NCBI GenBank assembly: GCA_029532415.1
Contig: JAQOTA010000050.1
Coordinates: 1,674,001-1,738,000 of the forward strand
Direction: 5' to 3'
DNA: 64,000 bases
From: Marasmius tenuissimus
Lineage: Eukaryota > Basidiomycota > Agaricomycetes > Agaricales > Marasmiaceae
Positions 988 through 46,650 of this stretch are shown piece by piece (position 1 is the first letter of the stretch; every line of letters starts with the position of its first letter). The translations under genes were made by a program, and so were the position numbers. The notes under the pieces are model-generated. The model was not told the origin of the DNA and searched no databases. It saw nothing but the letters and a program-made list of their open reading frames with translations.

Positions 988-1046
988 GAGGACACAGACG
1001 ATGAGTACCCACCTGACAGATGCGGACACAAATTGATGACAGTTGA
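988..1046 (+). repeat. left terminal inverted repeat, copy A
   Basis: 59 bp pair with the reverse complement of 18926-18984 without gaps. The outer 10 bases match at only 5 positions (GAGGACACAG against GGGGCCGGGG). The inner 49 bases, beginning ACGATGAGTACCCACC, match at about 45. The same two end types recur on copy B. Confidence 0.85.
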
Positions 1047-1372
1047 TGACACCTGTTGATCGGTGGTGCCTAGCTACGAATGTTCTAGATAAGATTGAAA
1101 ACCTGCTAAGGGGTTAGCTCCTAACTGCACATGATGAGACTTAGCATTGCCAAATGGGCGATTGAGCCAGCACCGATGGAAGCGCACTGATCAGCGCCGA
1201 TAGCAAACCTCTTGACCGACTCTTCACATCCACTCACAGTCTTCACAATCAAGATTGCTCTAAACTCTTTTGGGAAGACTATCTACCAAATTCGGACGGT
1301 ATTGAAGATCTCGCTCAGCCCATTCCACAAATTCCGTCAAGTAATACGACTGTAGCTCTCCTCATTTGCACC

Positions 1373-4300
1373 ATGTCTCGACCTCAAATCATGTCCATAA
1401 CTGCAATTCTCAACCCATACTCCCCTGCAAACTCTCAGTTCTCAACTCCAAGTACATCACAGCCGCGCTATTCAAATCAGCTTCCTATTCAGAGCCCTCT
1501 GCGTCTGAACCCTTCGCTCACCCCCTGTTCCACACCCCCGCGGTCACCTAGTGCTGCCAGTTCCTCAAGTTCTAGCCCAACCTCGTCTACAAGTTTGAGC
1601 CCGATGTATTCACGCTCTCCCTCACAAACTTTCTCCATCTATACTGGTGAAGTGGATCCTCCGACACTCACCAAAACCAATGTAAAGGCGTCGCGAAATA
1701 CGACTCTCGATAGACTGTATGTCTATGAAGATTCAAATGCTTACATCGAGTATCCCGAGACATCGAAGCGCGGAATTGGATACCTATTCCTCCAAGACCC
1801 TGGCAACTGGCGTTCTCCCACCTCAGACTTTGCGTACTCTCTAGGGAATCCAGGGGGTCAAAAAACTGCTGATCGACACGGGAAGCTACTCACTCATGAT
1901 CTTCTTGGGAATGGTACTGTCCCTTGTATGGTCCGGTCAAGAACCTGTGCGGCGACTTTTGCTTTGTATGATCCATTTAGTCTAACCTTTGGATTGTCCA
2001 GGTCAAGGAGCGAAGGTTTGCCCTCACGCCGATGTGGACAAGATGAAGGCCCCTCATACCTGTGCATCCTTGGATCTAGTCAGGGAAAGGCTGGCTCAAG
2101 ACCGTGATTTCCGGCTTCAAAATGACTCCCCTTCTCGTCAGGTCTTCCTCAAGACTCAGGCCTTTATCACCTCTCTGCTCCGTGTTGGCTGTCGGCTTAC
2201 AGGTGAAACGGCTGTGCTGGATTCTGAAGATAGCGATGAGGAGTCCCAGTTTATTCGGGACCATCATCAGTCTCTGAGAAGGGGTTATGTGGAGAAGGAA
2301 CCGCGCTGTCAGGGTAGATTGAGTCTACTTCATGATGGCGGAATGATAGCGTCTGTTTCATCCTTGTTCTGTACTCGAGTTATGGCTGAATTCATTTGTT
2401 TAGATGCGAACACTATGACTCTCAAACTGCCCGTTCTCACTTTCACATGCGGCTGGACGACTCCTACAACAGGGAATACATCAAAGCTGTACTTGCTGGC
2501 GATACTCAAGCAGCAAAGGAGCTTGAGGAGGATGCATTCTTACAGTACAATGTTGGACCCGATGCAGAGTGTACAGTTGTATCGAATCATTCAGCTCAGC
2601 GTATCAACTGTCGTGAGTATTAGGAACGGCCAACCCTGGAATATATACTAATCTTTCAATTAGCATATTCTCACCGGGACAAGAATGACCGACTCTATCA
2701 GCCCCTTCTTGAACGATTACCGTGCTCTGTCAAGTTTCGGGTATATGAACCTTTGGAAGATTACCGCGTACAATGCCCATATGTTCTCGTGATATGCTCT
2801 GGCGTCCACCGTCACCCTATCCCCTTGCCAACAAAAACACCTCCGCGACTTCGTAACCAACTCTTCAAAGTCTTTCGTGACATTGGGGAAGACTTGGCGG
2901 ACCTTACTGTCCGAGGACTCCTTCGCCATGGTGTCGTTCATTCTTACCTCAAGCAGCTGTTTCCTCAAAATCCTCTCGCTTCGCTCTATGATGTTCACTC
3001 TTCCCTAGCCAACCATGAGCACCTAGCATACTACATCAAGACTGCAAGGGGGCTATACTTCCCTCATGGGACTGGATGGAAAGGTGCGTTGTTGATTTAT
3101 ACCTTTTGATATCTAGGGTTAACGCGTGTTGTGATAGGTGCCCTTCATCTGTATCATCTTCAGACTGAACGATATCCGGTAGAAGCTCACTACATCCGCC
3201 GGTTCATTGAATTCACGGATGAGCCTGGAGTCATAGACGATGATGGAGATGATGAGCCTGCACCGCCTGAGGGACATCGGATTATTATCTGTATGGCTCC
3301 TGGGGCTAGTGCGCTACTCCAGCAAGCCCAGTTTCTCCAGAGCGACATCTCCTTCAAACGAGTTCAGGGCTGGAAGGAGTTTATCATTGCTGGACGCGAC
3401 CGGGAATTGAATTCCAGTACAATTTGTTTTTATTGACCTGGTAATCTTCTTGCTCACTGTGTTTTTCAGCGGTTGTCTATTGTAGGGCATATGTCACTGG
3501 AGAATCAGCTGCGCTGCATCTTCGTCTTTTTGATGCTATTGAGGAGCTTGTTGTAGAGGATACAGGTCTACCCATACGCTGGCGGCACTTGTACGCAAAC
3601 TCTAATGACGATGAAGATCAGAACGGGCTAATGTTGCTGTGGATTGCGGATCAACACGGAGGTCAAGCAAAAGGTGCTGTTATTGCAGACGCTAAAGTAC
3701 ACTATACTGACCAGAAACCATAGGCCTGGGACTTCATATGCAACGTATAGCCCAACGGCTTCCCAACCGACGTGATTTATTTCAGCCACACAGGTCAGTT
3801 GCGGAGCTCTCCTGGTCTGAACATCTCCACCGGGTCTTCCGTCTTTGCTCTGTTCATGTCCACCGGAACATCCAAGAGTGTGGGGTCCCTCGTACTGTCA
3901 AAGAGGCCATGAGAAGCTTGGTGTGCATGGCACATGATGATTGGGAAGGAGCCGTTAGGATTATAAAAGAGGAAGGCGGGAAGAAGGGAATTGGTATGTC
4001 CCTCCTTGTTGGCTTTGTTCAATTCTAACGCTTGCTCAGATTGGTATGAAAATAAGGTGAACAGTAAATTTGCACTCGAAGGGATTTGCTGGGAGCGAAG
4101 TAAGGTTCCCAAGGCGGTATGGATTGCTGGAGATAGAAATGACAATATTGTTGAGGGTGCGCACTCTAATATCAACCTTGAAGGGAAAGGGTGTTCTTTG
4201 GTTGGGGGCATGGAAAAGGCCAGGCGTTATGATGCTTCTCGACTTGCTTCAATCAAGGTATGTGTTTCTTATAAATTTGTTTGCGAAATGCCTGCTGACT

Positions 4301-4755
4301 TTTCTTGAAGCTGACTCAGGATGCAGGTATAAGGCGCTCATACGCTTCAGGACTTCTAGTGGATAATGCGTCCCGCGGAATCAAACGAAAATGTGAGTAT
4401 TATGCCTTTCCTTTGCCTCTCACATGGACTTCAACATGCGTTTTTAGTTGCCGGAGACCATAAACGACTTGAGAAAGAAGATGATTTGATTCGGCAGCAC
4501 AACCAGAAACTCAACAAGGCGCAGGAGCGATTCAACAAGGCAAGGGAAAAGGGTAGCAAGCTGTGGGCACACGTTCAAGAGCTGCAACAGCTCAATTCGA
4601 CACAGGAGGAGATACAATCAGCACTGGAGCAGGTTGAGAAGGAAAAGGAATTGTATGTACGGTATCGGGATGAAGTTGTCAAGCAGTCTGACAAGGGAAG
4701 CGCTCTTCGGAAAGGAAGCGGGCGCGAGATGGCACGGACTTTGGTTCTCGGATAA
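1373..4755 (+). CDS. MULE-like DDE transposase, copy A
   Basis: Ten exons splice in frame with GT-AG introns: 1373-1913, 2002-2350, 2404-2612, 2664-3083, 3138-3416, 3470-3673, 3724-3993, 4040-4257, 4311-4392, 4448-4755, giving 959 residues. An N-terminal Ser/Pro-rich part is followed by a Cys/His-rich region (about residues 180-375, including ACEHY and CPYSH) that could be a zinc-binding DNA-recognition domain. A candidate catalytic triad follows: D576 in LQSDISFKRV, D660 in WIADQHGGQAKGLG, and E796 in DRNDNIVEGAH. An LCSVHVHRN motif between the second D and the E resembles the C/HxH signature of Mutator-like transposases. The C-terminus (about 857-959) is a charged probable coiled coil. It is the first gene inside the left end, as expected for the mobility gene. 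A KDZ-type transposase was considered, but its hallmark motifs were not seen. Confidence 0.8.
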
Positions 4756-4841
4756 AGGGCTTCTTTTAATTTAACTCTATTCATTTTTTCTCTTCCTGTT
4801 ATAACTATGTGGAATGGATGGAAATATGGGACAGGAAAAAA

Positions 4842-6107
4842 ATGCCCAACCTCGCTCGATACCAAGCCAACCTTCTTGCAGCTTTCTTCAAAGTCCCTCC
4901 AGAGACCACCCTCCAGATCCTCGAGTCCCTCCCTCGAAAGGACCTTCAGACGATGACTCTTGTCTGCACTGAAGTATCATCCCTGGCTCAACGCCTATTC
5001 TCTGACACCATCAATATTTCGCACGGATACGACTCTCACATCTTGTCTATGATGAGGCTGCGTAACAAAGCCGCACCTACATCCCTATTCAGAAGGGTCA
5101 AAAGGGACTTAGCCTTTTCACAGGACAAAGCGCAACAGATACTTCTGTATTGTGCAGAAGGAAAGATGGACCACATCAGGGAGCTCCACTTGTTCTCTAC
5201 AAAGAAGAACATCGACTGGGACATTCTATATCCAGAAGCTTCCGCTTTGCTCTGGAAATTCCGCTCATCCCTCCGGGCCATCAAACTCCAGTCTCTTGGA
5301 TGCCAATTCATCTGCCGTATTCTAGGCGAATTGAACTCGTTCTACTCTATCACAACCCTCGTCCTTCATGCCCCAGCATTTCGTTCCTTTGACTGGGGGA
5401 CAACTATCCGCTTGCCCTCTGTTTCGAGCCTATCCCTTATCGACATGAACCCCGAGAGGCAGCCCTCCTTCAACTTCTATAGCGTAGCCGAGCGACGCCT
5501 CCAGACAGGACCACTCACCCATTTGTCCATTATTGGGGAATTGGGCAACTTGGCTGTGGCGCGTATTGTCGGCAATTACTCGGATCATGAGTTGTTAGAA
5601 CTCAACCTATTGGATTCCAGAGGTCCTAGTAACGGTATGTCATCTCTACTTGTCATAACTGATAGAAATTGACCAATCCCAACAGTGACTTTACCCATTC
5701 CGACTCCAGTCACCAGTATAGACTCCGTTGTGCACTTTGGCATTGACCTGGCCTGGTTTGCCGCCTATTTGAATGCCCCCGCACCTCTAGTTCCATTTCC
5801 GAAACTCGAAACCCTCTCAATACAAGTCAGCTGGGAACAATACGATACGGACGATATCTTCCAAAACATGACGGCCCAATGGGATGCTCTGGCAGCTGTA
5901 GTGCCCAGGTGGTTAGCGGCCAAGCAATTCAAGGTATCCTTAGACCTGCGGGACGAATTCCAGATTGACACTCATGCACTGGAACGATTTGCGAGGGAGA
6001 GGCTTGGATTTGAGATCGGTCAGTCGCAGGCTGCACCACTTCCAAAGGTGTATGAGTTTACAGATTTGCCAGGCTGGGGAAGTAGTGAGAATTGGGGTTC
6101 TCAGTAA
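4842..6107 (+). CDS. F-box protein, copy A
   Basis: Two exons (4842-5634, 5686-6107) give 404 residues. I chose the ATG at 4842 because the sequence upstream of it differs in frame between the two element copies, while the protein from this point is conserved. Residues about 12-50 hold an F-box (VPPETTLQILESLPRKDL, then LVCTEVSSLA). The rest resembles the divergent leucine-rich C-terminal halves of agaricomycete F-box proteins. F-box proteins bind Skp1 and bring targets to SCF ubiquitin ligases, so the product may direct turnover of a host or element protein; the target is unknown. It starts 86 bp after the transposase stop on the same strand and lies tail-to-tail with the TET gene. Confidence 0.8.
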
Positions 6108-6208
6108 TATCGAGTTTGTTTCCTTACTTTCCTTGCAGTAGTACAAAAGAAGTTCCAGAGCGATACATTTCAGTGGCTGTAGCTACAGTTACAAGAAAAA
6201 AAGATACA

Positions 6209-7939
6209 TCAGTTGGGGGATTCGTCGAGTGTAGCTACATGAATAAAGTCCTTCAATTCGTAAATAGTAGAAAAGATTTTGAGATTTTCCTGATACGCGT
6301 TAGCCTTTCCCTTCATCATCTTCTCGTACTCGGCTCGGTTGAATTCCTTCAGCTGAGCCTCGGTCATGAAGTCGTTATCGACCCAACGAAAGATTGGACC
6401 AGCAGAATATTGAGTGAACGAATTCCTCTGATCACCTGTAGTGCAAGTCAGCATCAGAATCAAACTTGGAAGAATAACACAAACTCACCTTTAGCTACCG
6501 GGATGTTGTAGTGAGTAACAACAGCCGAAGGAAGTCCAATCGTGGAGGCCGGAGGAAAGTCAATGATGAGTTTCAGCTCATCCAGCACGATTTGGCCTCC
6601 TTTCCGATGGTCAAAGCGCCCAAGAGCTGTAACAAAGCACAAACCAGGGGGCCAGTTGAAGAAGTCGCGGTGAGGGGTCGTGGTCACGCTGCGACCAAAA
6701 TTGAATGTCGCTGCACTGAAGACGCCATGCTTAAAGTTTGCCTTGAGGTTCGGCAGTTTGTTCAGAACTTTCTTCAAGGTCGATTCGTGCCTCTCATATG
6801 CACGGGGTCTCCAAAGCGCATAGGACTCTAGAAAAATTGATCAGTACATGAATATGACAGTGAAACAAGACATAATACCGTTCTGGAACCCAGCAACACG
6901 CTGGATCCCTTCATGGGCAAGGAGGCGAGCCAACGCGGGGGCCATCTTTCCATTCTTGAGTTGAACAGGCGTGGCGTTACCCATTCCCATGGCTATCCCG
7001 ACGTTGAATGCAGAAAAGTTGCCGCGACGATGGGGACCATTGGGTGAGTCATTCCCGATTCCTACAATATCACCCTCTTCAAGGATGGCATCAAAAGCAT
7101 CAAGACAGGATTTGACGTAGGTAGGGTCGTCTGGTCGGCCACAGAGCACCGCAATGATTCTGCCAGCGCTATCAACAATGAGCAAGGGGGTGCTGTGAGA
7201 TGTATTCAGTAAGAGGTTGGAATCGTGAGATTAAAAAAAATCGCACACGCCATCCCACTTGATGTGGCGATATCCGTTCTTCTTCATCTCCTCAATGGTG
7301 GGGTTCTCTGCGGTGCTCTCCGGCAAGGTGGTCTTGGATGGATTCTTTTTTTTGGCGGATTCTTCTTCGTCACATCCTCCTTCAGTGCTCCCTTCCCTGC
7401 TGCCTTCTTCTCCTTCTTCCCCGCCTTCTTCTTTGGGCAGCCCGTGTAACCACCCTTGGCAGCTGCAAAGTCTGCTGCATCAAAAGGAACGCTGAGGACT
7501 TTCACAAATTTCTGGAGCTTCAGCTTGATGCGCTCGGAGAGTGGGCGCTTCTCCTTTGGCTGGGCCCTTCGTTTTTCGCGACGCTTCGAGTTGTTCTTGC
7601 TTTGTCCAGGGTCATGGGTGGCGTCGGCTACTGCATCGGTCTTCGTCTTCTTCGCCACACCTTTCTCCTTCGTCTCTCCTCCTCTCCTCCGCTTTCCCTG
7701 CTGACCCATTCCTTCCAACACACTCGACGGCGCCTTGGGGCCCAAATCCTCCTCAACCGACATCTCCGGCTCCCTCTCTTCGGCTTCTCTGAACAGACGA
7801 ACAAAAGGGTCGGGTAGCTTGAGCTTCTGAAGGTTGATGATGCCGTAGACGCGTCCCGAGCGGAGCTAAAAAAACAATACCGTGAGGCCGGAAAGAATGA
7901 ACGGTGAGATAGCGAGCTTACCGAGTGGAAGAGCGTCAT
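6209..7939 (-). pseudogene. TET/JBP-family dioxygenase with a frameshift, copy A
   Basis: This is the counterpart of the intact gene at 38773-40500. Exons run leftwards from the ATG at 7939. A run of eight T at 7346-7353 corresponds to a stretch one base longer in copy B. The resulting 1-nt deletion in the Lys-rich region shifts the frame and gives a stop near 7284, before the catalytic core. The downstream exons encoding the iron-binding core (TPHRDF, VVTHYN, DQRNSFTQY) remain open. A sequencing or assembly error in the homopolymer is possible. If real, copy A makes at most an N-terminal basic fragment and depends on other copies for the enzyme. Confidence 0.75.
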
Positions 7940-9390
7940 CTTGATCTGTTGGAAAAGCTAGTCAGCTCCTGAGCAAACATGAGTAGGATTGAGGGGGGAA
8001 AACGCGAAAAAAAAACGCGAAAATAGCCATGTAAATGTAGCAACAAAAAATCAAAAAAAAAAGATGCAGCGAGCACCAATGCACTCGAGAATACAGCAGC
8101 TCGATCCAAGGGTGTTCGAATCGTTCACTCTGCTCTAGTCTGTGAGGCAATTGGCGCACTTTGGGGGGTTGAAAAGGGGGAAAAATCGCTCAAGGCCTAC
8201 CCAACCGCTGCAGCAGTGCGATCCAACGGTGATCGAATCGCTAACCCTGCTGCAGAAAACATGAGATAGGCATGAACTTGTCAAAAACAGCGAGAAAAAC
8301 GCGTAAAATGGGTCAATCGAGCGGTTGAAAAAAGTTGAACCAACAAAAAAAGCAGAGAAAAAAGCGACAAATGGAACACTTACTGATTTACGGGCCAAGT
8401 CCAGCAAAATCAAGCTGGGAAACTTCTTTTGCGAGGCAGCGAATCCAAGAGTATGAGAGATAGCAGCAAAGGGGAGTAGTGGTAAGAGAAAGAGGGAGGG
8501 TGCAGAGGCCGGCGCCAATTTGGCCTGGTGAACGTGAGCTTAATAAGCCGAGCTGGGGTACTGGGTCGAAGCTAACACGCCGAAATACTGCATCAAAAGT
8601 CAATAGAAGCTATATTCAAAGATATTATAGTTCACGGATTACACTAAATTGGGGTGTGAGAGACTGGCTTCATCCACCAGGGTCGGGGTCTCTGCCAGCT
8701 CTCGCCCACCACGCTCAATGAAAACAGCCCACCGCAGACGGTAGACGGGTAGACCTTTGGCCCCAACGCCCATAACATCACCCCAACGCGAGAAACAAAG
8801 TCCAATCTCTCGATTATTCCTCCTGCGACCCTCAAAACGGCCCGTCGCTGTTTGTTGTCCAGCTCACACTGGCACCATTGTCACAGACCGTTGCGACTGA
8901 TTCCGACTGAATCGGCTGCAGAAGTTGGCTGGGCATGTTTGGTTTATGAACACGACCGTAACGGGTAGGTGCCGCTGCCAAAGGCAAGCAGGACCAGCCG
9001 CTAGCGGTATGAAGCGCCCACAACCCGCGCATGCACCGCCAATGGGTCCACAGGTACGGAACAGAGCTGCAACGTTCGTGTTATTCAATGCGAGAGACCG
9101 TTCGCGAATGGCTCGGATGACCTACAAGATCAAAAAAATATATGTTAGCACCCTTTCGTCCATATCACAAAAACTGACTCGGTTACCTCCTCAAAATCTC
9201 CGTCATCTCGTTAATGTAACTGAACGAAAGAGACTCCGTAGACCTGGATCATCGTCCGCCAGGATTGTTCTTCGTCATCTAGCTTTGTTCGAATCGACAG
9301 TTTCCCGAGTTGGGTGCATTAGGCTTCTCTCGAGGGTCTCCTCATCAACGGCGGATGCGGTTGCACAGACGGTGGCCGGTGATGATGATG
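7940..9390 (-). other. TET upstream region, conserved in both copies
   Basis: This 1.4-kb stretch matches 37320-38772 of copy B closely. Just upstream of the TET start is a possible 5'-UTR intron: in copy B a GTAAGTG donor lies near 38330, with a CAACAG acceptor right before the ATG. A conserved stretch at 8864-9118 can be read as a Cys-containing peptide (RTCGPIGGACAGCGRF), but it has no recognised family and its continuation is broken. It may be promoter, leader or an old gene relic. Confidence 0.4.
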
Positions 9391-9402
9391 GATAGAAACG
9401 AC

Positions 9403-9709
9403 TGGGGAGTACAAAGTCAACACCCCCCTCATCTCCCCCCGCCTCAAACTGTTCAACATCATCAACGTCCAAGAAGACTTCAACTTCCACGCCGCCCTCT
9501 ACGCCAACGACAACCACGCCTTCCGCACCGCAACCTCCGGTGGCGTCCCCTTCGGCGACGGCCTCAATACCCTCTCCGATTTCACCTTCATCGACCTCGA
9601 ACACACCAAATGGGACAAATGCAACCTCAACGAAGGCGACTGTCTCACCCCAAAAGGGTTCGCCTTCACACGTGTCCATGTAGCCCCGTTCGCGTGGATA
9701 TTCCTCTGA
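9403..9709 (+). pseudogene. endonuclease/exonuclease/phosphatase gene fragment, copy A
   Basis: The open stretch encodes pieces such as NDNHAFRTATSGGVPFGDG, TKWDKCNLNEGDCLTPKG and TRVHVAPFAW. These match the core of fungal secreted endonuclease/exonuclease/phosphatase-fold proteins. It is cut off abruptly at about 9709. Copy B keeps a much longer part of the same gene (36233-37290). Each copy lacks segments that the other has, so both descend from one captured host gene and have suffered different deletions. Confidence 0.6.
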
Positions 9710-9799
9710 CAACCGGTGGTTTATCGCTGCGAATACTTGACTCATCACGTCCTTTCAGAGTGGTGGTGTTATTATCTAGGTCGAAAAAAAAAGAAAAAG

Positions 9800-10560
9800 A
9801 AAAAGCGCGCACCTCGACGACGCCGGGACTGAGATACCTCGGGGGGTAGCTGGCGTCGGTGTGGCAGGTGTAGCAGGTGTCGGTACTAAAGGAACAGGCA
9901 TAGATTGACCCTCCAAAGCCAATAAGCCAGCATCCCCAACAGCTCCGTCAACGATGACCTTTACAACGCCCTGCACGTCGTCCCCGACCTATGTGGCATT
10001 CCACACCTCGTCTTCGACTGCTTTAGCTTGTTGGTTGAGCCTGGACTGGTGAAACGCGTTGAGCCATTGTTTGGCTATAAAGCAACGACCATGCATTTGC
10101 AGCGGACTTCGCAGTCGACGACGAATTTGTGGGTTTCTTTGTAGACGGCGACAAAGTCGTCGAGAGACACGCTTGTCAGGTATGTTTGATTCGATGTGAG
10201 TTGGGAGGCGAGGGATGTATGTGTGAGGGAGGTGAATTGGGTGAGGAGAGATTGGAGGTCTTCGGTGAGAGTTGGGATTAGATCTGGTGTGACGAGAGTG
10301 GGGTGCATTCGTTTGAGGTATTCGACTAGTTCGAGGAGAGTGTTGTTTTGGGATTGAAGGGCGTCGATGGCGTGGATGATGTCAGCGTACGATTGGGAGA
10401 GACGTCTTCGCAGGTTGCCGCTGTCTTCCGGTGAATCACCGTCTGTGGTGAAATCGAGGATGCGGAGGAGAATGACGCCATGGAATAGGAAGACGAGGAA
10501 GATGACATTGGAGGGTTCTGTTGCAAGTCTGGGGGTGGTAGGCCGGTGATGTTCATAGAT
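9800..10560 (-). pseudogene. VPS54 fragment (middle to C-terminal part), copy A
   Basis: Read on the minus strand, the segment encodes DFVAVYKETHKFVVDCEV and then, after a frame change, AFHQSRLNQQAKAVEDEVW and GVVKVIVDGAVGDAG. This resembles the middle and C-terminal part of Vps54, a GARP tethering-complex subunit for endosome-to-Golgi traffic. Frame breaks show that it is not an intact gene. Copy B instead keeps the N-terminal part (35074-35640), so the two copies hold complementary remains of one captured gene. Confidence 0.55.
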
Positions 10561-10639
10561 ATCGGGCGGGCGGATTTGGTGGCGGATGATGGTGGGGAGT
10601 TGGTGGGGGAGAAGAAACCGGCGATGGAAGTCTCTGCGG

Positions 10640-11050
10640 GACATGCGTAGTCGCTTCTTTCCACGTCGCTCGTACGTTCCTCCAAAGCCCGCACATGCCC
10701 CACTGTCCAGTTCTCCAGCTTCTCGAACCGTTTAGCGATCGTGAGTAGGGTATTGAGTGTTGAACTGTGCATAAAGCGGCGGTGCCTCGCGAGAAGGTGA
10801 AGAAGTAAGAGGTGACGGTGAAAGGTTAGGCGCCATATTCGAACGTGATGGTGTAGGCGATGCAGCTCCCCATCCGAGGGATGAAAACCAAACGGTCCTT
10901 CACAGGACACCACACGCTCCTTCCGTCTTCGTCTCCCTCGCCTCCCTCTCGCAAACTTCAATGGTCTTCCCTCGTTATAGTCCCTCTGAACTGGACGTTG
11001 GGCCGAGGAGAACATGGGTTGATGAGTACCTACATGGTAGTCCAAGGGAA
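10640..11050 (-). other. unidentified coding relic, copy A cargo
   Basis: The minus strand contains a helical, charged stretch (TIAKRFEKLENWTVGHVRAL) followed by a Ser/Pro-rich part. It looks like a real protein segment, probably captured, but I do not recognise the family. No complete gene can be built, and copy B has no counterpart here. Confidence 0.3.
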
Positions 11051-11309
11051 AGAGATGATGCTGGGCACAGGGTTACGGCCGGTACTTTACCCGGTGTTGT
11101 ACGGATATCGGAGTACACAGGCCCGTAACCCAATACCATCCTTTCCACCACACGTGGTGAATGGAATCAAATCCGAGGCGGAGAGGTTTTGTTGACCCTA
11201 AAAAACGCTAAAGTGAGTCTCAGGCCGCTAGGAAACGTCGCTGGTTACTCACCAGTACCCTTAGAGACGTTATATGACTTCTGAACGCCGTGGATAGCCG
11301 CCCTCGATC

Positions 11310-11932
11310 TCAGGAACGCCAACGTAGGTGATTGTTTCGTGGGTGTGGTTTGTGTAGGCGTAGTCTGCTCCTCCCCTTGCTCGTCTTCTCTTTCCCCGAA
11401 TACCGTTTAGATCTCCTAGTAAAACTCGGGCTCATCGGACTCCCAGGAACCGTCAACGTCAACTGTTGAGGTGATGGACTCGACTGTGGAACGGGGAAAT
11501 CCAAACGTGGAGGAACAGGCGGTGGAAGCGCCGGTAGCGGATAGACATGAATCGGAAGTGGCGGAGGAGAGGAATGTGCGTGAGATTCGCGGTGATTGTG
11601 AACGTTAGGTGCCCCATACGCGCTGGATGGGATGAAATCTATCGCCTACAATGCAGAAGAGTCAGATCGTAGGAAGGGGCATTGAGTGTTGATCTTTCTT
11701 CACTTGGTGTAGTCCTGAAGTGCGACATCTGTAGTGGTCGAGCCGTTCAGCAGCATGCCTCGGGCTGGCGAGAGGTCACATACTGAAATCGAAACTATCC
11801 GTCCTCTCTGCGAATCCAAGTCCAATATGAGCCTTCTCCCCACTATCCTTGACTCGAACAACGAAATATCGGGATGAGTCCAGTACTGCTTCGACACAGG
11901 GCTTAGCGAGGTCGTATTTCGCACAAGCAAAC
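11310..11932 (-). pseudogene. NECAP-like gene fragment, copy A cargo
   Basis: Read on the minus strand, an exon at about 11932-11790 encodes [18 protein letters not shown], then [20 protein letters not shown] short exon near 11728-11702 encodes VALQDYTK, and a Pro/Ser-rich tail follows (IDFIPSSAYG onwards). This is the PH-like ear-binding domain and the tail layout of NECAP (adaptin-ear-binding coat-associated) proteins, which act in clathrin-mediated endocytosis. The N-terminal half was not found in frame, so this is a captured fragment and not a working gene. Confidence 0.6.
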
Positions 11933-12019
11933 ACTAGATGGAAACGGCTGAGAAATATGGGTTCATCTATTTATTGACGAGTCCTTACGCTCTCCTGTAA
12001 TTCATACAAGTCAGTTCTA

Positions 12020-12546
12020 GCAGGTGGAAGCTAACCCAACAGCGTCGTTACGCGGACTTGTCGGATGAGAATAGGCTTGTTGGGACCCAAATCGTGCATC
12101 TGACCGGTGGGAAGTAGAGAAAATGTGAGGGCAACATGCGGATACCGCTCGCGTTGATTTTGAAGTTGTTTTGGCACATTTCGAGTTCTAGAATGAATAT
12201 AGTGAGTTTCCAGAGCAAAAATCATAAAACTATGAAGAGAAGCGTACCTTGGCAAAAGATTGTGGTGGTGGTTGCGGAGAGACCGTACCCACCGGCGCCT
12301 GTATGCTGAATGAACACAGCGCACAGCCACTCTACGCCTCTTGCTTTTCTTCCACCACGACCACCACAATTCGACGTTTTCGAACGGAATTCTGCAAACA
12401 AAACACCCCAGGTGAGCTCTTTGTACCTCTAGATATTCTTTATTTTTAAAATCTGATTTTTTCGTGGTACTCTTGGTTGACCTTCCAAATAAGGAAGTGC
12501 CAGCACCAATTGGCCCTCTGACTTCCTTTTAAGGAAGGTGAACGAT
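12020..12546. other. stretch upstream of JmjC shared with copy B
   Basis: This segment recurs at about 33591-34120 of copy B. Open stretches on the minus strand (12031-12369) look like further decayed cargo next to the NECAP-like fragment, but no family is recognised. The right part must hold the JmjC promoter. The variable cargo region ends at about 12020 in A and 34120 in B. Confidence 0.35.
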
Positions 12547-15500
12547 ATGGCGGTACGTTTGAGCTTCTCCGCGGTCTTGGGGGAGCACTTATTTCTGTTT
12601 AGCATAGCGGAACTGTAATCAAAGGGATCCGTGGCCCCAAAACCACGAAAAGGAAATCCAAGTCTGGCGTTGAAGTGACGCTCGACAAACATATATTCAA
12701 ACAGATCCCGTTTGAGACGGATCCGGCGCACTTGCTTGACGCTGACAGCTGCCCCCCCATCGCCAAAGTCAGTTGTGCTTTTTATACCAGTGATATTAAC
12801 TTATATTGCATACTAGAAGCTGCTAATCCAAGCGAAGATAGACCTCGAGATTCTCCTCTCGTCTGAAACGGATCAGGACGATTTCGACGAATCGGTCGAC
12901 TCACTCGAGAACAAGGAACTTGCAGAGAACATCTTCATGCTCCGATTAGTGGATAAGCTGAAGGAGGTTTATGGAGGGGACAAGGTACCCCGTAACAAAG
13001 AGATGGGCTGGACTGCAATCCCTCCCCAGTCTTTTCGCAAGATTGTAAGTTTATTAGTTGTCTACCGCACAGTCTCCTGGTTCTAATCCGTCTCCAGCCT
13101 GCTCTATCCCTGTTCAATAAAGAGAATGGCTGGGTAGATGCCCTGCAGACTCTGCAGCGGGGCTGTGTGTCTGAGCCAGAGCCTGCAATGAGGAATTCAA
13201 AGAATTCAAAGTCGCCAAGAACGGTGATGCGCGGGATTGTCGCAGGCATTTTGCAAGCAGAAAGCTCAACTGCATTCCAAAGTGCTGTGAAGAACTTTGG
13301 TTACCTGGCACTTGCACTCACCTACGTTCTCAAGGCAAGTCTATTTGTCTGGCTGCGTCTTTAATCACTCAAATGGAGTTCTAGACGGGTAAAACAACCT
13401 TTCCTCCCAAGTATGAGGACATGGTGGGCGAGATGGATTCCCTCGATGGGTTGAGCTCGAAACCATCTGAACTTCGAGGGGGTCTCAACGCTACGATGAT
13501 TAGTCCCTTTACCCTTCTTTCACCACGAGGATGCAATGCATTTCGAAACGACAACTCCGCCCTCACCATGCTTCGTGTGCGTAACTGTTTTTTATTGATG
13601 AATCGCCTCTAAAACATGGCTTTACAGTGGCTCACGGCATTCGGAAATATCAAGCCCAAGGAGCTTCTCCGAGTGGAACGCTTGTTCTACACTGAAATTC
13701 TGTCAATCGTCGACGGCTCGATTTCCCCTTTCACTGCGGTGGTGAACTTCCTTGATGCTGTAGATGAACTTGACTTTACGGAATGTGATGACTTGGGGTA
13801 TTTCGACATTGGTATGTGTTATCCATCACTATATTTCATAGTTTTCTCTGAACGTTCAATAGTAGGCAACGAGGAGGAGTCCGATGACGACGATGAACTC
13901 GAGGAGGAGGAACCAACCACCACCAGGCGTTCCAAGCGGAAGGCAGGGTCGGATGCTGATGAAGATGAGGCTCCTCCAGAAAAGAAGAAACGCGGCGGAG
14001 GCGGATGGTTTGGCGGTGGAGGCGGCGGCGGCGGCAGTGGGAACAAGCAGAAAAGAAAGCCTTCTGTGTTTGTTGTCAAGGATGATGAAGGCTGGAAAAA
14101 GGTAGAGCGGTTAAAGGCCAAGATGGGAGATATTCCCCGCTTGAGTATTCTTGAGGACTCACCGGTAAGCCTTCTATCTCATGCCTTTTCGCTCAGAACT
14201 GATGGTAACTTCAGCGAGCAAGGGAACCCCGCAATACTTTTACGTTGAGATGCGTCAGGAATGGTGAAGAGTATCAATACACCCCGGCTTTCTATGTGAG
14301 TTATCTTGTGCATTCGTCATTTACTTTGTTTGAATAGACTTCATCAGCCACAAAATCCAAACTCCAATTTCTCGTTTGACCCGCACACTACTCTGAAGAA
14401 GATCTTGGAGGACTTGGTCTGGGTTCAAGCCAGTACCAACCTGGAGCATTCGGGCGATATATTGGCTTTCCCCTACGCCCAACTCAAGAATTTTGGCAAG
14501 GAAGAGCTGTTGAAACGGTTTGGGAACACATTTGGTATTGTGTTGACAGAGCGCATACTGGAGAACAAGGACGAATTCTCCGAAAGTGTTCTTTCCAAGT
14601 TGGGTCTTCTGGACGATATGAGGCAGATTCACGGTACGCGTTCCAATGTATTGTTTTTCTTGGTTACTGACACGTGCTCAGACGCCTCTCTCGATGGCGA
14701 ACGCGAAGATGGAAACACGTATATCCAGGCCAGTCTTAGGGAGATGTATGAAGCCAGGGATCGCCGCGGACACATCATGAACCTACTCGACGTTCCTTCT
14801 GAGTCAGGCGGCACCTGGGTACCACTTGATCTAGCAATTTGTCGGCAGGCATGGATGAACATCCAGGATGATGAAGCGCAGTTGGACTTTGTCTTTCCAA
14901 TGCGCGACATGTGCTGGTACTTGTGCGGGTTAACGGATGCTCTCCACGACTGGCATGTTGATGCTCAAGGTCTGGCCACTTGGATCACCATTCTCACTGG
15001 GAAGAAGTTGTGGATAATCGGTGCTCCCAGTGCAGCTGATCCCCAAGAGCACGCTGGAATCGAATCGTTCAACACCTGTCAAGAGAAGAGCGTAGGTTGG
15101 AAAAAGTACGGGATTTTGTTGGAAGCGGGCGACACATTGTGAGTTACACCGTATTCTCTTTCTATCTACCCACTCATATACTTCCAGGATAATGCCTCCC
15201 AACACACCTCACTTTGTTGTGACAGTTGTTGATTCCGTGGTGGAAGGGGGCCACTTTTACTGCTCTTCAACAATCCAGAAATCGTGTTTTGGGATCTTTC
15301 ACGTCACTGCATCATACCGACACGTTACGAACAACGACCACTCCAAAATCCGATATGTGCTTGTGAACATCCTCAACTATTGGTCCCGGTACATGATGAA
15401 TTCTCCCAAATACGAATCGAATCTTCACGACCAACACTTTGACCCCACCCTCGATATCCCTATCGTCTCCACGCGCGATGGACTTCTCCAATTCCTATCC

Positions 15501-15977
15501 CTGGTCAACATCGTCTATCTTGGCACTGTACTTTGCCCCGAGCGCTACGACATTGCAGTACTCAAAGGTGCAGAAAAGGCCAAGGTAGAAAAGACGTTAT
15601 CGGAGTTCCTAAACCCCCTCTACACAACCTCCAGAATATACGCTGATGCTGCATTGGACTGGCTACAGACCAGATACTCTGTGGTGTCGACTGAAACTGG
15701 AGAGGATTGTTGGGACGAGGTACGATATGGCTATCTAGTTGATCAAGCTAGGACCCTGGTTCACCATCGACACTTGTGGGAAGGAGAAAACGCGGTTGCT
15801 GGAGTCTCTCCGAACCTCACCGCTGCAGCAATAGAGGAGAAGATCACGAGCGACTTTGGTCAGTACGATGCAACGCTGAAGAAACTTTGGGATGATGCTA
15901 GCGATTCAGAGGCACACAAAGACTACTTTTATCACCGGTGTAACTTTACTTTCAACCGCGTTGCAACAGACGATTAG
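12547..15977 (+). CDS. JmjC-domain protein, copy A
   Basis: Eleven exons splice in frame: 12547-12552, 12603-12767, 12817-13044, 13098-13334, 13385-13576, 13628-13811, 13866-14164, 14215-14295, 14348-14633, 14682-15138, 15188-15977, giving 974 residues. The fourth intron has a GC donor (AAG/GCAAGT) and an AG acceptor. The middle holds an acidic run, basic clusters (RRSKRKAGSD, PPEKKKR) typical of a nuclear protein, and a Gly tract whose composition differs slightly between copies. The C-terminal third has a JmjC core: H651 and D653 in DWHVDAQG, Lys 667/668 in LTGKKLW, and H720 in PPNTPHFVV. These are the expected iron and 2-oxoglutarate ligands, so enzyme activity is plausible. JmjC proteins demethylate histone lysines or hydroxylate proteins; the substrate here is unknown. 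No PHD or other reader domain was seen. The 3' end lies 8 bp from the convergent PIDLT gene. Confidence 0.8.
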
Positions 15978-15985
15978 ATACATAT

Positions 15986-16430
15986 TTATTCCAGTGTCAA
16001 ATCAATGGGATTTTCTTTCGATGACCCTTCATCATTTTCTTTGTTGCATTCTTCCACATCCAACGGATTCTCCTGAGTACCATCCACTGTGAGATCAATA
16101 GGTAGAAACTGTGAGTCTCCTGGTGGTACAGTTAGGTCAATGGGTTCTTCAGGCAGTGCGGCTGTGGGTTCGCCTATATTCCATATCAAAATCAACCTGG
16201 CAGATAACTCGAAGGTAATTCGTACGGGAATACTGGTCAAACCGCTCTTCTATGAAATATGTTAGCCTGGTTGTGGTCCATTGGCAGTAAGCAGTTGTAC
16301 CTTCCATCAACCAGAGGAAGTTCCCATCCGGATCATAATGAATGTATGCCCCACCATCTTCCACGAAGACACCTGGGTCATTCTGAAGCTGTTCAAGAGC
16401 CTGTTCGCACTGAGTAGGGGAGGTCTCCAT
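15986..16430 (-). CDS. small acidic protein with three PIDLT repeats, copy A
   Basis: This is the counterpart of 29704-30148, where the splicing is described. The start MET-SPTQCEQ is at 16430 and the stop at 15986. The predicted 113-residue product ends in an acidic tail with PIDLTV, PIDLTV and PIDLTLE, each resembling a SUMO-interaction motif. The coding part differs from copy B by a few substitutions and has no frame break. It is tail-to-tail with the JmjC gene. Confidence 0.6.
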
Positions 16431-16552
16431 GTCTATTTCTGATACGATAGCACTATCTTATAGTCTGAGTTCATCCAATTTGGTATCGCGATCCATACTT
16501 TTTTTTCCTGATTATGACAGGTAATGACAGGTACATAGAAGAGAACAACTGT

Positions 16553-18404
16553 CTATTTTACAAATTCTATCTCGGAGTCGGACTATCACTTTGGCATTAG
16601 AACGCATCACAGGTCAGGAGGAGAATATGACGCTCACATCAAAGTACTCGTACTTGTACCTGTACGTTTTGCAGGGATCCGTGCAGTCGCCAGAGTTATC
16701 GAGATGAAGCTGGTGCTCGGAGAAAACCCTTGCCAATTTGCACACGCGACATACATACCAAGCAGACTTGATAACAGCCCAGACGTCCTGGGGAACACCA
16801 AGCTTGCTGTGATATTCGATGAAGGCGACACTAACCCGGGATCGTGCTGTAAACTCGAAGCGTTTTGCATGGGACTTGTTGCTTTGCAAATCGCAGGGAT
16901 ATCTTCGGAGCGATACCTTGGGTTCACTGAGAATAGTCTCTCGCACAACTGAACAGAAATCATGAGTGCTTGCTTTGTGAAACTCGTATGAACGCGCACC
17001 TTCTTCCTTGGACTCACAATTCCCGCACTGGTCCCCAACAAGATGGATAGAGTGACCCTCGTTAGTGAATACGCAGAGACAGATATGACAGAGAACTGCA
17101 TCCTCAATAAGAGCATGGACAGAGTGCGCAGGTACTCCCGCCTGTGAGCAGAATGCACGTATGACTTGTCCAAAAGCGTCAAAACTGGGGTAGATGAGTT
17201 CCCATCTGCAGCCATTGGAACCAACACGATTTGGGAACTTGTGCGAATCATACGGGTCGAGTACGCTGCACTCGCCCTCAAAGTAAGCGGGGTGATCGTA
17301 TCGGGGGTCTATAGAGCTGTGAGAACAGATCTATCATGATCGCAGAATCAAACCATACTCACATTCTCCTGCGTTGGTACCCTCAAAGTCGACCATATTC
17401 CGAACGAGTTCCTTATCTAGAGGCACATCAGAGAGATTCTAGTGGGAATGATAGGTGAACAAACCGTATTGTGCCCTAGCATTAGCAACGCTGGGAGAAA
17501 ACATGTTTGGTCCGCCATGTTCTCCCTCAGACTGATGGCGAGTCATTACTGGTTGCGCAACAGCCAGCTGACTGTCAGGTTGCTTGCGCTTTAGGCTCCC
17601 ATGTTCATTGGTAACATGTTGCTGAGCTGGTAGAATGGTGGGCATTGAGGGGCCTGGCTCAGAAACTTCCTCCTGGATCTCCTCGAAACGACCTGGTGGG
17701 AAATGAGAACGTGATACACTCTGGCATTAAATTCGAAACCAACCAGAGTCATTGACAGGTAGATGATCGGGGTGGCAAGGAAGACCTTGGTAGCCAGCAC
17801 TAAGCTTTGGCAAGACCCCTACTGAGGACATCAGCTCCGCCGAGATGAGATGAGCACTGTACTTACAAGCAACGGGGCATCCGTTCGTCTGGCAGACAAA
17901 TATATCGTACTTGACTTGGTGGACAGTCTTCCGCAAGAGGATGAGGAATGGCCCAACATGATCCTGCAGTGGACCATCCACATAGCAGATTGGATGATCG
18001 AGAGTTCGCTTCTGAGGTGGTTTCTTGAAGTCGTCGATAAAATTTTGAGCGCTAGCGGGCCGGATTTGACCATTGATCTCAACGTCCTGCCTACAAAAAA
18101 ACATATTCGTATCACAAGGCTGCAAGTCACGTCCCACCAACATACCTCTGCCATTTCTGAATCATTTTGGTGTCCGGGTTGTAAGTCATGATTGGTTTTC
18201 CGGCGTTTGCAGAATCCAGCGCTCGTTGAATCTTGAATTCATCCGGGGTCTGAGTAGGCTGCGAGCCAGAGGCGCGAAATTTCTTGGAGGCATGATTGAA
18301 CCAGGACATATCTGAGGACACGGAGGTGGGGGGTGATGAAGGAACGATTGCAAGTCACCAATTGCCCCTTTGGCTACAAGTATCTCCTTCACAGACCTCG
18401 TCAT
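16553..18404 (-). CDS. Cys-rich protein of unknown function, copy A
   Basis: This is the mirror of the gene at 27731-29582. The start ATG is at 18404 (MTRSVKEIL; copy B has MTSSVKEIL) and the stop at 16553-16555. The same exon set applies and no disruption was noticed. Details of the Cys pairs are given under the copy B gene. It is the outermost gene at the right end of the element, transcribed inwards from that end. Confidence 0.6.
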
Positions 18405-18925
18405 CTGTGAAATAAAAAAAAAAAAAGAGCGAGATCATCGGGTCCCCACATTCTCCAGAGTCCTGAGTGAAGCCTACGTCGCGTCAATCTTGAGGTTCCA
18501 AATCACAGAATTTTGCTGTCAAAGTGTCAAGCAAATCGAGCAGTAGTAGCACGGCTTGCATGAGTCGGTGGACCAAGTTGCCCGTCCTTGAACAACCCTA
18601 TACATATGTATGTTTTCCCTGTTCACCATCCAGAGCTCTGGCAGATTGGTTCATCAAAAGACCCAATGTTTGTCGGATAGCGACAGTCCAGAACGCGGAA
18701 GAACATAGGCAACCCCGGTATTTGCTATTCCGGGTCCGAAGAACTGGAGAAGCGCCCTGGCGCCTGACATCGGAATATGCCGTGTTTCTCGACGTTTTGG
18801 GTATTTTGGGTTTTATTTTGCAATATTTTCTTGTTTTCCAAAAGGGATCATTATTATTGATTATTACTGATAATTACAGAAAACGCTCTGATTATCTAGA
18901 CACAACCTGTCAACCCCTCTGTCTG

Positions 18926-18984
18926 TCAAGTGCCATCAATTCGTGTCGGCATCTGTCAGGTGGGTACTCATCGTCCCCGGCCCC
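18926..18984 (-). repeat. right terminal inverted repeat, copy A
   Basis: The reverse complement begins GGGGCCGGGGACGATGAG and pairs with 988-1046. Between this repeat and the Cys-rich gene start (18405-18925) there is about 0.5 kb without a recognised gene. It contains an A-run near 18415 and AT-rich direct repeats around 18840-18880. Confidence 0.85.
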
Positions 18985-18994
18985 GCTCAACTTC
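18985..18994. repeat. target-site duplication, right of copy A
   Basis: GCTCAACTTC, matching 978-987 at nine of ten positions. The following 18995-19230 shows no gene. Confidence 0.8.
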
Positions 18995-27142: not shown

Positions 27143-27152
27143 CTATTGATGA
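27143..27152. repeat. target-site duplication, left of copy B
   Basis: CTATTGATGA, identical to 51419-51428 and present once, with one difference, in the related unoccupied site at 21031-21040. Confidence 0.9.
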
Positions 27153-33590: not shown

Positions 33591-35060
33591 ATCGTTCACC
33601 TTCCTTAAAAGGAAGTCAGAGGGCCAATTGGTGCTGGCACTTCCTTATTTGGAAGGTCAACCTAGAGTACCACGAAAAAATCAGATTTTGAAAATAAAGA
33701 ATATCTAGAGGTACAAAGAGCTAACCTGGGGTGTTTTGTTTGCAGAATTCCGTTCAAAAACGTCGATTTGCGGTGGTTGTGGTGGAAGAAAAGCAAGAGG
33801 CGTAGAGTGGCTGTGCGCTGTGTTCATTCAGCATACAGGCGCCGGTGGGTACGGTATCTCCGCAACCACCACCACAATCTTTCGCCAAGGTATGCTTCTC
33901 TTCATAGTTTTATGTTTTTTTCTCTGGAAACTCACTATATTCATTCTAGAACTCGAAATGTGCCAAAACAACGTCAAAATCAACGCGAGCGGTATCCGCA
34001 TGTTGCCCTCAAATTTTCTCTACTTCCCACCGGTCAGATGCACGATTTGGGTCCCAACAAGCCTATTCTCATCCGACAAGTCCGCGTAACGACGCCGTCG
34101 GGTTAGCTTCCACCTGCTGGCAAGGGCTGGTGGAGGGAGCTGGCCACTTTGGGCTATCCTGAGGGTAGCGGATGTTAGCCCACCTATGTGCTGCCGGCGA
34201 AGGCTGGTACTCGGGAGAAGAGAAGGAACTTGGGGCTGACGGGTGCCGGTGAGTGTCATTGCCTATCACGAAACGTTAGTCTAACTTCCTTGAAGCTGCA
34301 CTCAGGCACCGACCCAACTTGAAGGCAAACAAGACGACGCACGGGAGAAGGGAAACTCCCAAGCCTGCTTCATCTGCCAACAACCGCCTCCTCAGAGGCT
34401 CTCGGGGTTGATGGAGAACGTATGACGGAGAAGAACTACACCAACTAGCCCACCACCCGCAAGTCGCAGATATTGGTAACCCTAAGCTGCCAGCGGCATA
34501 ACCGCAACCGCTGACAACGGTTCTGGTGCTGGAAGTTCGAGTAACGCCGCTTCTGGCAGCGGCGTAGAAACCTTCGAAAGCGCTCCCCGTTCCTCCTCCT
34601 CATAAGACCTCGTCCTCGTCGCTCAGACAGAACAGCGCTAGCCCGACACCAAGGAAACGATACACATGTTGCGCCGTTGAGACCGAGGGTGAGGTCTAAG
34701 AGTACGGATCGGTTGGATGCGGGTGCAGGGAAGAGTTCGTCGTTTGTGGATCCGTTGGTGTTGAGGAAGCAGGAGTCGGCTGCGAAGTAGGCGCTAAGCT
34801 CAACCCTAGGCGCTTGCGCCAGGATTCTTGTTTGGCTCTGGGTACAACTGGCGCTCGCGCGCGATGCACTGCCTCCTCCCTGGCTTCACTCAGTACCACC
34901 ACCATCAGCTATTCTACGACGACCAGCTACAACATTCCCGGTGAGTTTTTCACTGTTTTGCTCATCTTTACCTACTAACATATTCTACAGCTACGTCGTT
35001 ATCACATCCACTCCCGTTACAAGAGAAACTTTCGCCGAACGGTCTTCCGAAAACGTCTCG
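33591..35060. other. cargo region of copy B, left part, no intact gene
   Basis: 33591-34120 is shared with copy A and holds the JmjC upstream region plus an unrecognised open stretch (33768-34106, +). From 34120 onward the copies differ. 34120-35060 has short open stretches, some rearranged and rich in Pro and Ser, but nothing that can be named. Confidence 0.4.
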
Positions 35061-35073
35061 AATTGGAGCCTAC

Positions 35074-35640
35074 GTGACAGCGGGGAACAATCCACCTCTC
35101 AATCTCCATTTCAATGCCAGTGCTCTCGGGTTGGATTTCGGCGACGAAGGAGGAGGAGGAGGAGTGATAAAGAAAGAATGGAGCAGCTCCAGAGACGGAT
35201 TCCACGCCATCTTGACGGTGTTGAATAACCTACACAAGAAACAGGCGCCTCCTAAAGCACACAGCTCTCTGGGCGGGGCTGCGGTTGGGCCGGCGGAGCT
35301 TCCGAGGGTGAGGAGGACGGATTTCGATGGGTATTTGCGAGCTGTTGGGGACGAGTGGGAGAGGTTTCGTGGGCCTACGGCTATGACTACGACTACAGAT
35401 GACTCTGACCAACCAACGCCGTTACCGGGGAACCTGCCCCCGCTGGAGACGATCCCGTCTATCTTCTTCGACACTTCCTTCGATTTATCAGACCCAAAAA
35501 CGTTCGCATCCGTTTCAGAATCCGAAGATCCGACGTCGTTATCACATTCACTCCAGATCCACCTATCGCATGAAATCTCCCTCCGGTCGTCTAGTTTCTT
35601 CACGGCGCTGTCGAATTTACAGCTGTTCTTGGTGAACTGA
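35074..35640 (+). pseudogene. VPS54 N-terminal fragment, copy B cargo
   Basis: An open stretch of 188 codons contains GFHAILTVLNNLHKKQAPP, then AELPRVRRTDFDGYLRAVG, then IPSIFFDTSFDLSDPKTFA and HEISLRSSSFFTALSNLQ. This is the order of conserved blocks at the N-terminus of basidiomycete Vps54 (GARP complex). It ends in a stop and lacks the rest of the roughly 1000-residue protein. Copy A keeps only the middle and C-terminal portion. Confidence 0.7.
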
Positions 35641-35699
35641 GCAAATGGGTCGTCGCCCAAACGACAAACACCGAGTCCAGTTCAAGATGCGGTGATGGC

Positions 35700-36220: not shown

Positions 36221-36232
36221 AGATTCCGACAC

Positions 36233-37290: not shown

Positions 37291-37319
37291 TACCGACGTT
37301 GTACTCCCCAGTCGTTTCT

Positions 37320-45620: not shown

Positions 45621-45734
45621 GACCTCAGCTAAAACCCTCGACGTGGGAGCAGGTTGAAGTGATAGCCAAACAAACGACAACGAGGGTCTCCCGTTGCCTA
45701 CGATCCATTGGTGAAAGCCTCGAAAGGTACAGCC
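45621..45734. repeat. DIRS split repeat B2
   Basis: 114 bp, nearly identical to 46470-46583. It begins GACCTCAGCTAAAACCCTCG, directly after the broken target site. Confidence 0.85.
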
Positions 45735-46583: not shown

Positions 46584-46650
46584 TAGAGAGAGAGTGTGTG
46601 GATGATGATGATGGGGTGGCTGGTGGTGAGAGAAAGATGAGGTTTCGAGG

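Follow-up and report, generated by a model that had tools for sequence, protein, structure and literature searches.

The DNA analysed here (the window) is a stretch of 64,000 nucleotides from the basidiomycete Marasmius tenuissimus, C7:1674001-1738000, and it was compared with the genome of 71 Mb in 70 contigs to which it belongs; contigs are referred to by the letter C and a number, and positions given without a contig are those of the window. Positions 988-18984 are a complete DNA transposon of about 18 kb that moves as one unit, and that contains a transposase gene, genes for two putative oxygenases, one TET/JBP-like and one of the JmjC type, and genes for F-box, PIDLT-motif and Cys-rich proteins. 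The components of this copy, referred to as copy 1, are as follows; exon borders were drawn by eye.

988-18984, plus strand: whole transposon, copy 1, both ends exact, set by inverted repeats and duplications
988-1046, plus strand: left terminal inverted repeat, paired with 18926-18984
18926-18984, minus strand: right terminal inverted repeat, paired with 988-1046
978-987, no strand: left target-site duplication of copy 1, GCTCCACTTC, matching the right one at 9 of 10 positions
18985-18994, no strand: right target-site duplication of copy 1, GCTCAACTTC, matching the left one at 9 of 10 positions
1373-4755, plus strand: DDE-type transposase in 10 exon pieces, open in copies 1-3
4842-6107, plus strand: F-box/LRR-type protein in two exons (Pfam F-box E 0.0018-0.006, below the cut-off)
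6212-7939, minus strand: TET/JBP-like 2-oxoglutarate oxygenase with HRD...H...R, recognised from homologues and catalytic residues
12832-15977, plus strand: JmjC oxygenase gene with an N-terminal part of its own, start codon not fixed
15989-16430, minus strand: small protein with three PIDLT motifs, present in four of four copies
16617-18309, minus strand: Cys-rich protein, related genes near five of the eight sister loci

The inverted repeat is about 59 bp long by eye, and a program reports 50 bp of it at 92% (997-1046 with 18926-18975); a search for inverted repeats of at least 25 bp in positions 1-21000 gave no pair besides that of these ends. The termini read GAGGACACAG at 988 and GGGGCCGGGG at 18984, and both continue into ACGATGAGTACCC. 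An earlier reading of this DNA from its letters and open reading frames (the sequence-only reading) had described one mobile unit set by inverted repeats and duplications, and had placed its ends right to the base. Pfam searches of two stretches adjoining the element gave nothing useful.

Copies of the element and conservation of its genes

Genome searches score the best candidates only, so that all counts from this genome are lower bounds, and all comparisons of homologues are within this one genome. The sequence-only reading had proposed a search for further copies, and comparison of the element with the genome locates three more, giving at least four. The second lies in the same window, 8 kb from copy 1:

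27153-51418, minus strand: copy 2, inverted relative to copy 1, with the perfect 10-bp target duplication CTATTGATGA at 27143-27152 and 51419-51428
45623-51320, no strand: insertion of 5.7 kb near the left end of copy 2, with direct terminal repeats, resembling a long terminal repeat (LTR) retrotransposon

Copy 2 is 98% identical to copy 1 across the aligned parts. Copy 3 (C11:319408-341697) has the perfect 9-bp duplication CCATCGTGT and 97-98% identity in long aligned parts; its right end, at C11:319408, is shifted by a 520-bp insertion with TACCC on both sides, which rules out that this copy lacks a right end. Copy 4 (C61:290535-305150) is truncated by the contig end, hence its duplication is not testable, and across 14,621 aligned bp it shares 99.85% identity with copy 1, with one mismatch and seven gap openings. 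Because so similar a copy stands at another site, mobility has been recent. Target duplications of 9-10 bp are thus present in all three testable copies, the right flanks of copies 1 and 4 are unlike, and the copies are separate insertions of one unit. Segmental duplication in place of transposition is ruled out, since flanks and duplications differ among the copies.

The F-box, TET-like, JmjC, PIDLT and Cys-rich genes are present in all four copies found, and the transposase is whole in three, copy 4 retaining only its last exon before the contig end. The gene set is therefore kept between the boundaries, and the case that the sequence-only reading had named as telling against it, copies with the same ends of which most lack these genes, is not seen among the four. 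Sequence changes between copies were scored as pN/pS, a simple Nei-Gojobori proportion, for copies 2-4 against copy 1. For copies 2 and 3 respectively the values are 0.15 and 0.29 for the transposase, 0.15 and 0.19 for the F-box protein, 0.00 (one change in all) and 0.18 for the catalytic part of the TET-like protein, 0.10 and 0.28 for the JmjC domain part, and 0.08 and 0.26 for the Cys-rich protein, with too few changes in the PIDLT protein for a value. Copy 4 has zero substitutions in all pieces, and the insertions and deletions of copies 2 and 3 in the checked pieces are all of three bases. These comparisons show purifying selection on most coding parts between copies, and because captured host genes in the same element are mere fragments (see below), retention of the other genes is not just a matter of youth.

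Silent divergence differs by module. In copy 3 it is about 0.09-0.11 for the TET-like and F-box genes and about 0.03 for the transposase and JmjC genes; in copy 2 it is 0.078 for the JmjC gene and 0.005 for the catalytic part of the TET-like gene. This suggests that modules have been exchanged between copies.

The two oxygenases

The identification of the TET-like protein relies on its catalytic residues, on sub-threshold matches of its homologues to the Tet_JBP domain (PF12851), and on homologues that adjoin KDZ transposases; taken together these make it probable that the oxygenase is a TET. The residues H158, D160, H211 and R222 (an H-x-D...H arrangement with a downstream Arg) are invariant in all five sequences compared, the element protein and four homologues from the genome, and Tet_JBP is the sole Pfam match of two of these four. 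The protein has HxD, unlike PE-type TETs, which have HxE, and it fits none of the three TET types clearly, as these are set out in the available text of Kojima 2025.

The genome holds 43 TET-like loci, obtained by merging 78 matches by hand, with the four copies of this family counted as four. At least 10 of these have a KDZ match no more than 15 kb away among the matches listed, where an even scatter would give 1.7; the KDZ neighbours were taken from the matches listed of 165 found, with adjacent matches of one gene merged by hand. Such pairs echo the published association of TET with KDZ. Seven of them are spaced about 2.8-3.4 kb apart (e.g. C27:2158830-2162488 and C9:140337-143992), a putative second TET-carrying lineage in the same genome. 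For a different nine of the 43 loci the new transposase is found at a distance of up to 20 kb, five of them outside the copy 1 family; 0.29 would be expected if both were evenly scattered, which transposons are not.

The spliced JmjC protein matches PF02373 (E 1.2e-5, 26.2 bits, cut-off 24) and has the H-x-D...H residues, read from the sequence as HVD and PH; it also has a sub-threshold JmjC_2 match (E 8.9e-4, 19.2 bits, cut-off 22). Its closest relative, 73% identical with the N-terminal part included, is on C55, in 30 kb of sequence that lacks long inverted repeats, and the gene may be an older capture. Neither the PIDLT nor the Cys-rich protein has a significant Pfam match.

The transposase and its superfamily

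The transposase has its first catalytic Asp in QSDISFKR, the second in ADQHGGQAKG, and the Glu in NDNIVEGAHSN, with a C-x2-H in between; D279, D364, C413-x2-H416 and E500 are invariant in all four aligned transposases. The spacing, D-85-D-136-E with C-x2-H (counted by hand at alignment positions), is MULE-compatible. A C-x2-H between the second Asp and the Glu is a MULE feature, though not unique to MULEs, and MULE target duplications are about 8-11 bp; those of copies 1-3 and of a sister element on C5 are 9-10 bp. The element transposase has no significant Pfam match. Among four diverged transposases there is no match to the MULE domain PF10551 at E<=0.5 or 1, and none in Pfam to the KDZ domain PF18758 or to Plavaka, for which Pfam has a model; no KDZ match falls in the element among the matches listed. 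Comparison by hhalign with one real MULE, nested in copy 3, gave a probability of 0.2%, a weak failure as the profile is shallow (Neff 1.8). The transposase alignment profile found no match in the Protein Data Bank (PDB) at E<=10, and the single sequence found three chance-level matches. The sequence-only reading had called the transposase MULE-like; given the missing Pfam match and the hhalign result, agreement is confined to motif layout and duplication length, and the name is best taken as a motif-level reading only.

KDZ elements are marked by PF18758 and by duplications of 7-8 bp, neither of which is found here. The sequence-only reading had also named as a refutation an alignment that places the DDE protein in a described TET-carrying family. 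This was checked in part: there is no KDZ Pfam match, and 9-10 bp fits no duplication length among those stated for the published lineages.

Sister families

Beyond the four copies, the transposase occurs at eight or more loci (on C5 and C32, two each on C69 and C54, and at C7:1753325 and C7:3342238). At five of the eight a TET-like gene is no more than 20 kb away, and relatives of the Cys-rich gene are near five, two of these being weak (E 3e-5 and 8e-5). The TET-like and Cys-rich genes thus recur in related families, in which no relative of the JmjC or F-box genes was found, a pattern that the sequence-only reading had overlooked.

One sister copy was read, C5:2879313-2896244. It has the ends GAGCCCACAGTCGATGCGT and GAGGGAAGGGTCGATGCGT, related to those of the copy 1 family, and the duplication AATCGATCC, matching at 9 of 9 positions; it holds transposase, TET-like and Cys-rich genes, and its homology to the C32 copy begins exactly at the element end. 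At C5:2885305-2886438 it also contains part of an alpha/beta-hydrolase gene (E 3.6e-16) and a short part of a sirtuin gene (E 1.5e-5, with 25.5 bits against a cut-off of 24), so that taking up genes seems habitual in this lineage. A search of the genome with the end pattern GNGNNNNNRGWCGATGMGT gives 35 matches, compared with 14 for the reversed control; ends of these elements, or of a relative on C35, account for 13 of the 35. The end at C35:312288 is about 75% alike over 126 bp and has the same terminal motif, as a further diverged family.

The locus C7:1753325-1764973, 15 kb past the window, has a transposase of greater divergence (about 41%), followed at a distance of 9 kb by a TET-like gene, and C54:70709-82370 has the same layout; the former, being beside the window copies, means that related elements cluster on contig C7. 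At C69:843821 and C54:404581 there are transposases and weak Cys-rich relatives, and no TET-like gene was found within 20 kb; these loci possibly represent the state before TET uptake.

A variable slot of captured host-gene fragments

Between the TET-like and JmjC genes is a slot whose content differs among copies 1 and 4, copy 2 and copy 3. Copies 1 and 2 diverge at 9699 and rejoin at 12019, and copy 3 diverges at 8940.

8940-12019, no strand: variable slot of abutting host-gene fragments
9415-9699, plus strand: captured piece, donor C59:47239-47523, an endonuclease/exonuclease/phosphatase gene named via its continuation in copy 2
9699-10438, plus strand: two captured pieces (9699-9841 and 9842-10438), donor a VPS54 gene on C20 (donor frame E 3.1e-22)
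10439-10865, minus strand: two captured pieces (10439-10654 and 10657-10865), donor C10:5717486-5718373
10866-11009, plus strand: captured piece, donor C7:3729649-3729792, bestrophin-like at sub-threshold E 0.0087, the piece itself without a match
11638-12019, minus strand: captured piece, donor a DUF1681 gene on C21 (E 2.8e-19), intron retained
34119-37300, minus strand: slot of copy 2 and its border, with other C59, C20 and C10 pieces, a piece from C5:871k and a multicopy repeat

The copy 1 pieces are 81-97% identical to their donors, and a further piece, common to copy 3, resembles C57; the genome search gave no single donor for 11010-11259 (about 250 bp) or for most of 8940-9414. The DUF1681 gene, presumably of the NECAP type, left an intron in its piece, so genomic DNA was taken up. 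The C59 material of copy 2 comes from two neighbouring donor genes, one of the phosphatase type (Exo_endo_phos2, E 9e-7 with the copy 2 piece) and one at C59:48993-49194 with an IDO match (E 3.8e-12). In the orientation of the element the pieces of copies 1 and 2 have the same order, C59, (C5), C20, C10, as would be expected if an ancestor had held a larger set of captured genes from which each copy lost different parts. The slot of copy 3 contains a fragment of an MT-A70 gene, its halves (E 1.8e-17 and 3.8e-8) split by the canonical MULE mentioned above (C11:329758-332780, PF10551 E 1.5e-13). CpG observed/expected is 1.03 in the slot (8940-12019), 0.76-0.82 in the rest of the element, and 0.79 in the C55 stretch, taken as host; the higher value of the slot would fit recent uptake, with the reservation that the C55 host stretch is also low.

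Host-gene fragments thus lie between the termini as in Pack-type elements, which have no transposase of their own, and here a transposase is present and open in copies 1-3. By its sequence the slot is apparently a Pack-type capture in an autonomous element. The sequence-only reading, right in outline about the transposon, had overlooked this copy-specific mosaic of host fragments.

Interpretation and alternatives

We favour, with a probability of about 0.6, an autonomous transposon of cut-and-paste type that forms its own lineage and holds two anti-silencing Fe(II)/2-oxoglutarate oxygenases. The transposase would mobilise the whole 18-kb unit, and movement of the unit is the only part of this mechanism with sequence evidence. 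The unit would have taken up and kept both oxygenases, the TET/JBP-like one shared with its sisters and the JmjC one seen in this family only. Most likely the two enzymes would keep the transposase promoter active, the TET-like one by oxidising 5-methylcytosine in the DNA of the element and the JmjC one by removing or altering a repressive mark on chromatin. The F-box and PIDLT proteins may act by adapting protein turnover in the host, and the Cys-rich protein may help, or bind, at the ends. The sequences themselves show the unit and its presence at four sites, the retention of its genes in the copies found and purifying selection on them, the recurrence of the TET-like and Cys-rich genes in sister families, and the uptake of host DNA into a slot. 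We infer cut-and-paste movement, the enzyme substrates, an effect against silencing and what the three other proteins do, as well as the DNA and histone targets, ubiquitin/SUMO linkage and escape from silencing that the sequence-only reading had proposed.

Several results weigh against this interpretation. The N-terminal parts are looser than the rest (pN/pS for copies 2 and 3 of 0.34 and 0.55 in the JmjC protein, and of 0.54 and 0.25 in the TET-like protein). Within the N-terminal part of the TET-like gene, copy 1 has a one-base homopolymer frameshift not shared by copies 2, 3 and 4, and copy 3 has a stop; copy 3 also carries one stop in the PIDLT protein, and the last transposase exon of copy 4 has a one-base gap relative to copy 1. 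Single-base differences of this kind may be assembly errors. In Pfam the element's own TET-like protein and two of its four homologues do not match Tet_JBP, and the matches of the other two are below the cut-off of 34.9 bits (E 0.022 and 0.14; 14.4 and 11.9 bits). The TET-like profile finds no solved structure in the PDB at E<=10, a single-sequence search gives three chance-level matches, and the structure prediction for the core, of which a double-stranded beta-helix close to that of CcTET and NgTET would be expected in a TET, has a pLDDT of only 36.7. By ungapped count, the protein has Asn and Cys where AG-type TETs have Gly/Ser and Asp, as far as these are given in the available text of Kojima 2025. 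The JmjC protein passes its Pfam cut-off narrowly and only when spliced (the first exon alone scores 15.6 bits), and relatives of the JmjC and F-box genes were found at none of the eight sister transposase loci in the best-candidate searches. Finally, 155 of the 272 transitions between copies 1 and 3 are at CpG, and a polarised test for CpG decay against the donors did not clearly show more loss in the element (18 versus 12, and 6 versus 3); methylation of the element is therefore not claimed.

An alternative is that all genes other than the transposase are passengers of a Pack-type element that gains nothing from the TET-like or JmjC proteins. The slot, which in copy 1 draws on five or more unlinked loci and in copy 2 on a sixth, is what such an element would contain, as are the sirtuin and alpha/beta-hydrolase pieces of the C5 sister; the JmjC gene, with its 73% relative on C55 outside any long inverted repeats and no relative found in the sister families, would fit as well. 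However, the captured pieces are fragmentary and have lost internal parts, whereas most copies have the TET-like, JmjC, F-box and Cys-rich genes in full, with pN/pS of 0-0.3 in the main parts of these genes; the TET-like and Cys-rich genes also recur across diverged sister families, and we regard the passenger explanation as unlikely. Quite unlikely, in our judgement, is that the cargo is of use to the host or has different substrates, with the TET-like enzyme directed at RNA, 6-methyladenine or thymine, and the JmjC enzyme at a non-histone protein. The weakness of the Tet_JBP similarity leaves room for this, as does the sub-threshold JmjC_2 match, a class that includes non-histone hydroxylases; nevertheless, TET-like genes are tied to two transposase families without detectable similarity to each other, which points to a benefit for the transposon.

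It is very improbable that the carrier belongs, in divergent form, to the KDZ or Plavaka groups already described as carrying TET genes. Fungal TET genes have been reported with KDZ, and the KDZ-adjacent loci of this genome (at least 10 of 43) repeat that association, but the four diverged transposases match neither group, no KDZ match lies in the element among those listed, and the duplications of 9-10 bp compare with 8 bp for Zisupton and Dileera, 7 bp for Kyakuja and 2-3 bp for Plavaka in the available text of Kojima 2025. Returning to the favoured reading of an autonomous lineage with two anti-silencing oxygenases, a bolder form of it, which we put forward tentatively and consider doubtful, is that the transposase founds a new DDE superfamily, at most distantly related to MULEs, in which large autonomous fungal elements would attack silencing twice, at DNA through the TET-like and at chromatin through the JmjC enzyme, acquiring such tools by Pack-type uptake into the slot and fixing the useful genes. 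The fragments in slots of the lineage include an MT-A70 methyltransferase (copy 3) and a sirtuin (the C5 sister).

Comparison with known elements and significance

The available text of Kojima 2025 (PMC12730594) describes 11 TET+ lineages (Kyakuja, Zisupton, Dileera, hAT7, IS3EU, PHISTA, EnSpm, ESTA, Plavaka, and Helitron1/2) with target duplications, where given, of 2-8 bp, and the words JmjC, MULE and F-box have no occurrence in its main text. With a TET-like gene enclosed by its ends and with a target duplication, the element here has the make-up of a TET+ transposon, given the TET assignment. It is like those of PMC12730594 in having a TET/JBP-type oxygenase beside a transposase in a complete element, for which anti-silencing has been proposed, and differs in its duplications of 9-10 bp and, as far as those elements are described there, in its JmjC and F-box genes. 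As far as could be tested, by comparison of descriptions and Pfam, the carrier is outside the 11 lineages.

With MuDR and other MULEs the element shares long inverted repeats, duplications of 9-10 bp, a DDE transposase with C-x2-H and extra genes related to silencing, unlike them in lacking a MULE Pfam match or profile similarity to the copy 3 MULE; plant VANDAL and a SET-carrying MuDR of Phytophthora are the MULE examples cited in the available text of PMC12730594. The slot resembles plant Pack-MULEs and other Pack-TYPE elements in its abutting fragments of several unlinked host genes, intron included. Pack-TYPE elements as described in the available text of PMC8903248 are non-autonomous and from plants, whereas this fungal element has its own transposase and oxygenase genes. 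A fungal hAT with histone H3 (PMC6710886) and Helitrons of Pleurotus (PMC4289320) likewise amplify captured host genes; the hAT, in the part of that paper available, captured one transcript without introns, in contrast to the copy-specific mosaic of genomic pieces here. In the literature searched, with subscription papers mostly outside it, no description of a MULE-like or JmjC-carrying TET transposon was found.

The element therefore looks like a further TET-carrying lineage that adds JmjC and host-gene capture, and the sequence-only reading is partly supported, being right in outline, with its superfamily name unproven and the function it proposed still an interpretation. What is added to the known TET-carrying kind is a second oxygenase on which selection acts, and Pack-type capture by an element that is itself autonomous. 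Transposons that carry demethylases would make the arms race over silencing directly testable. Two selected oxygenases beside captured genes that come and go would allow cargo that is kept to be compared with cargo that is lost inside one element, and the slot would offer a concrete route by which host enzymes may become transposon weapons.

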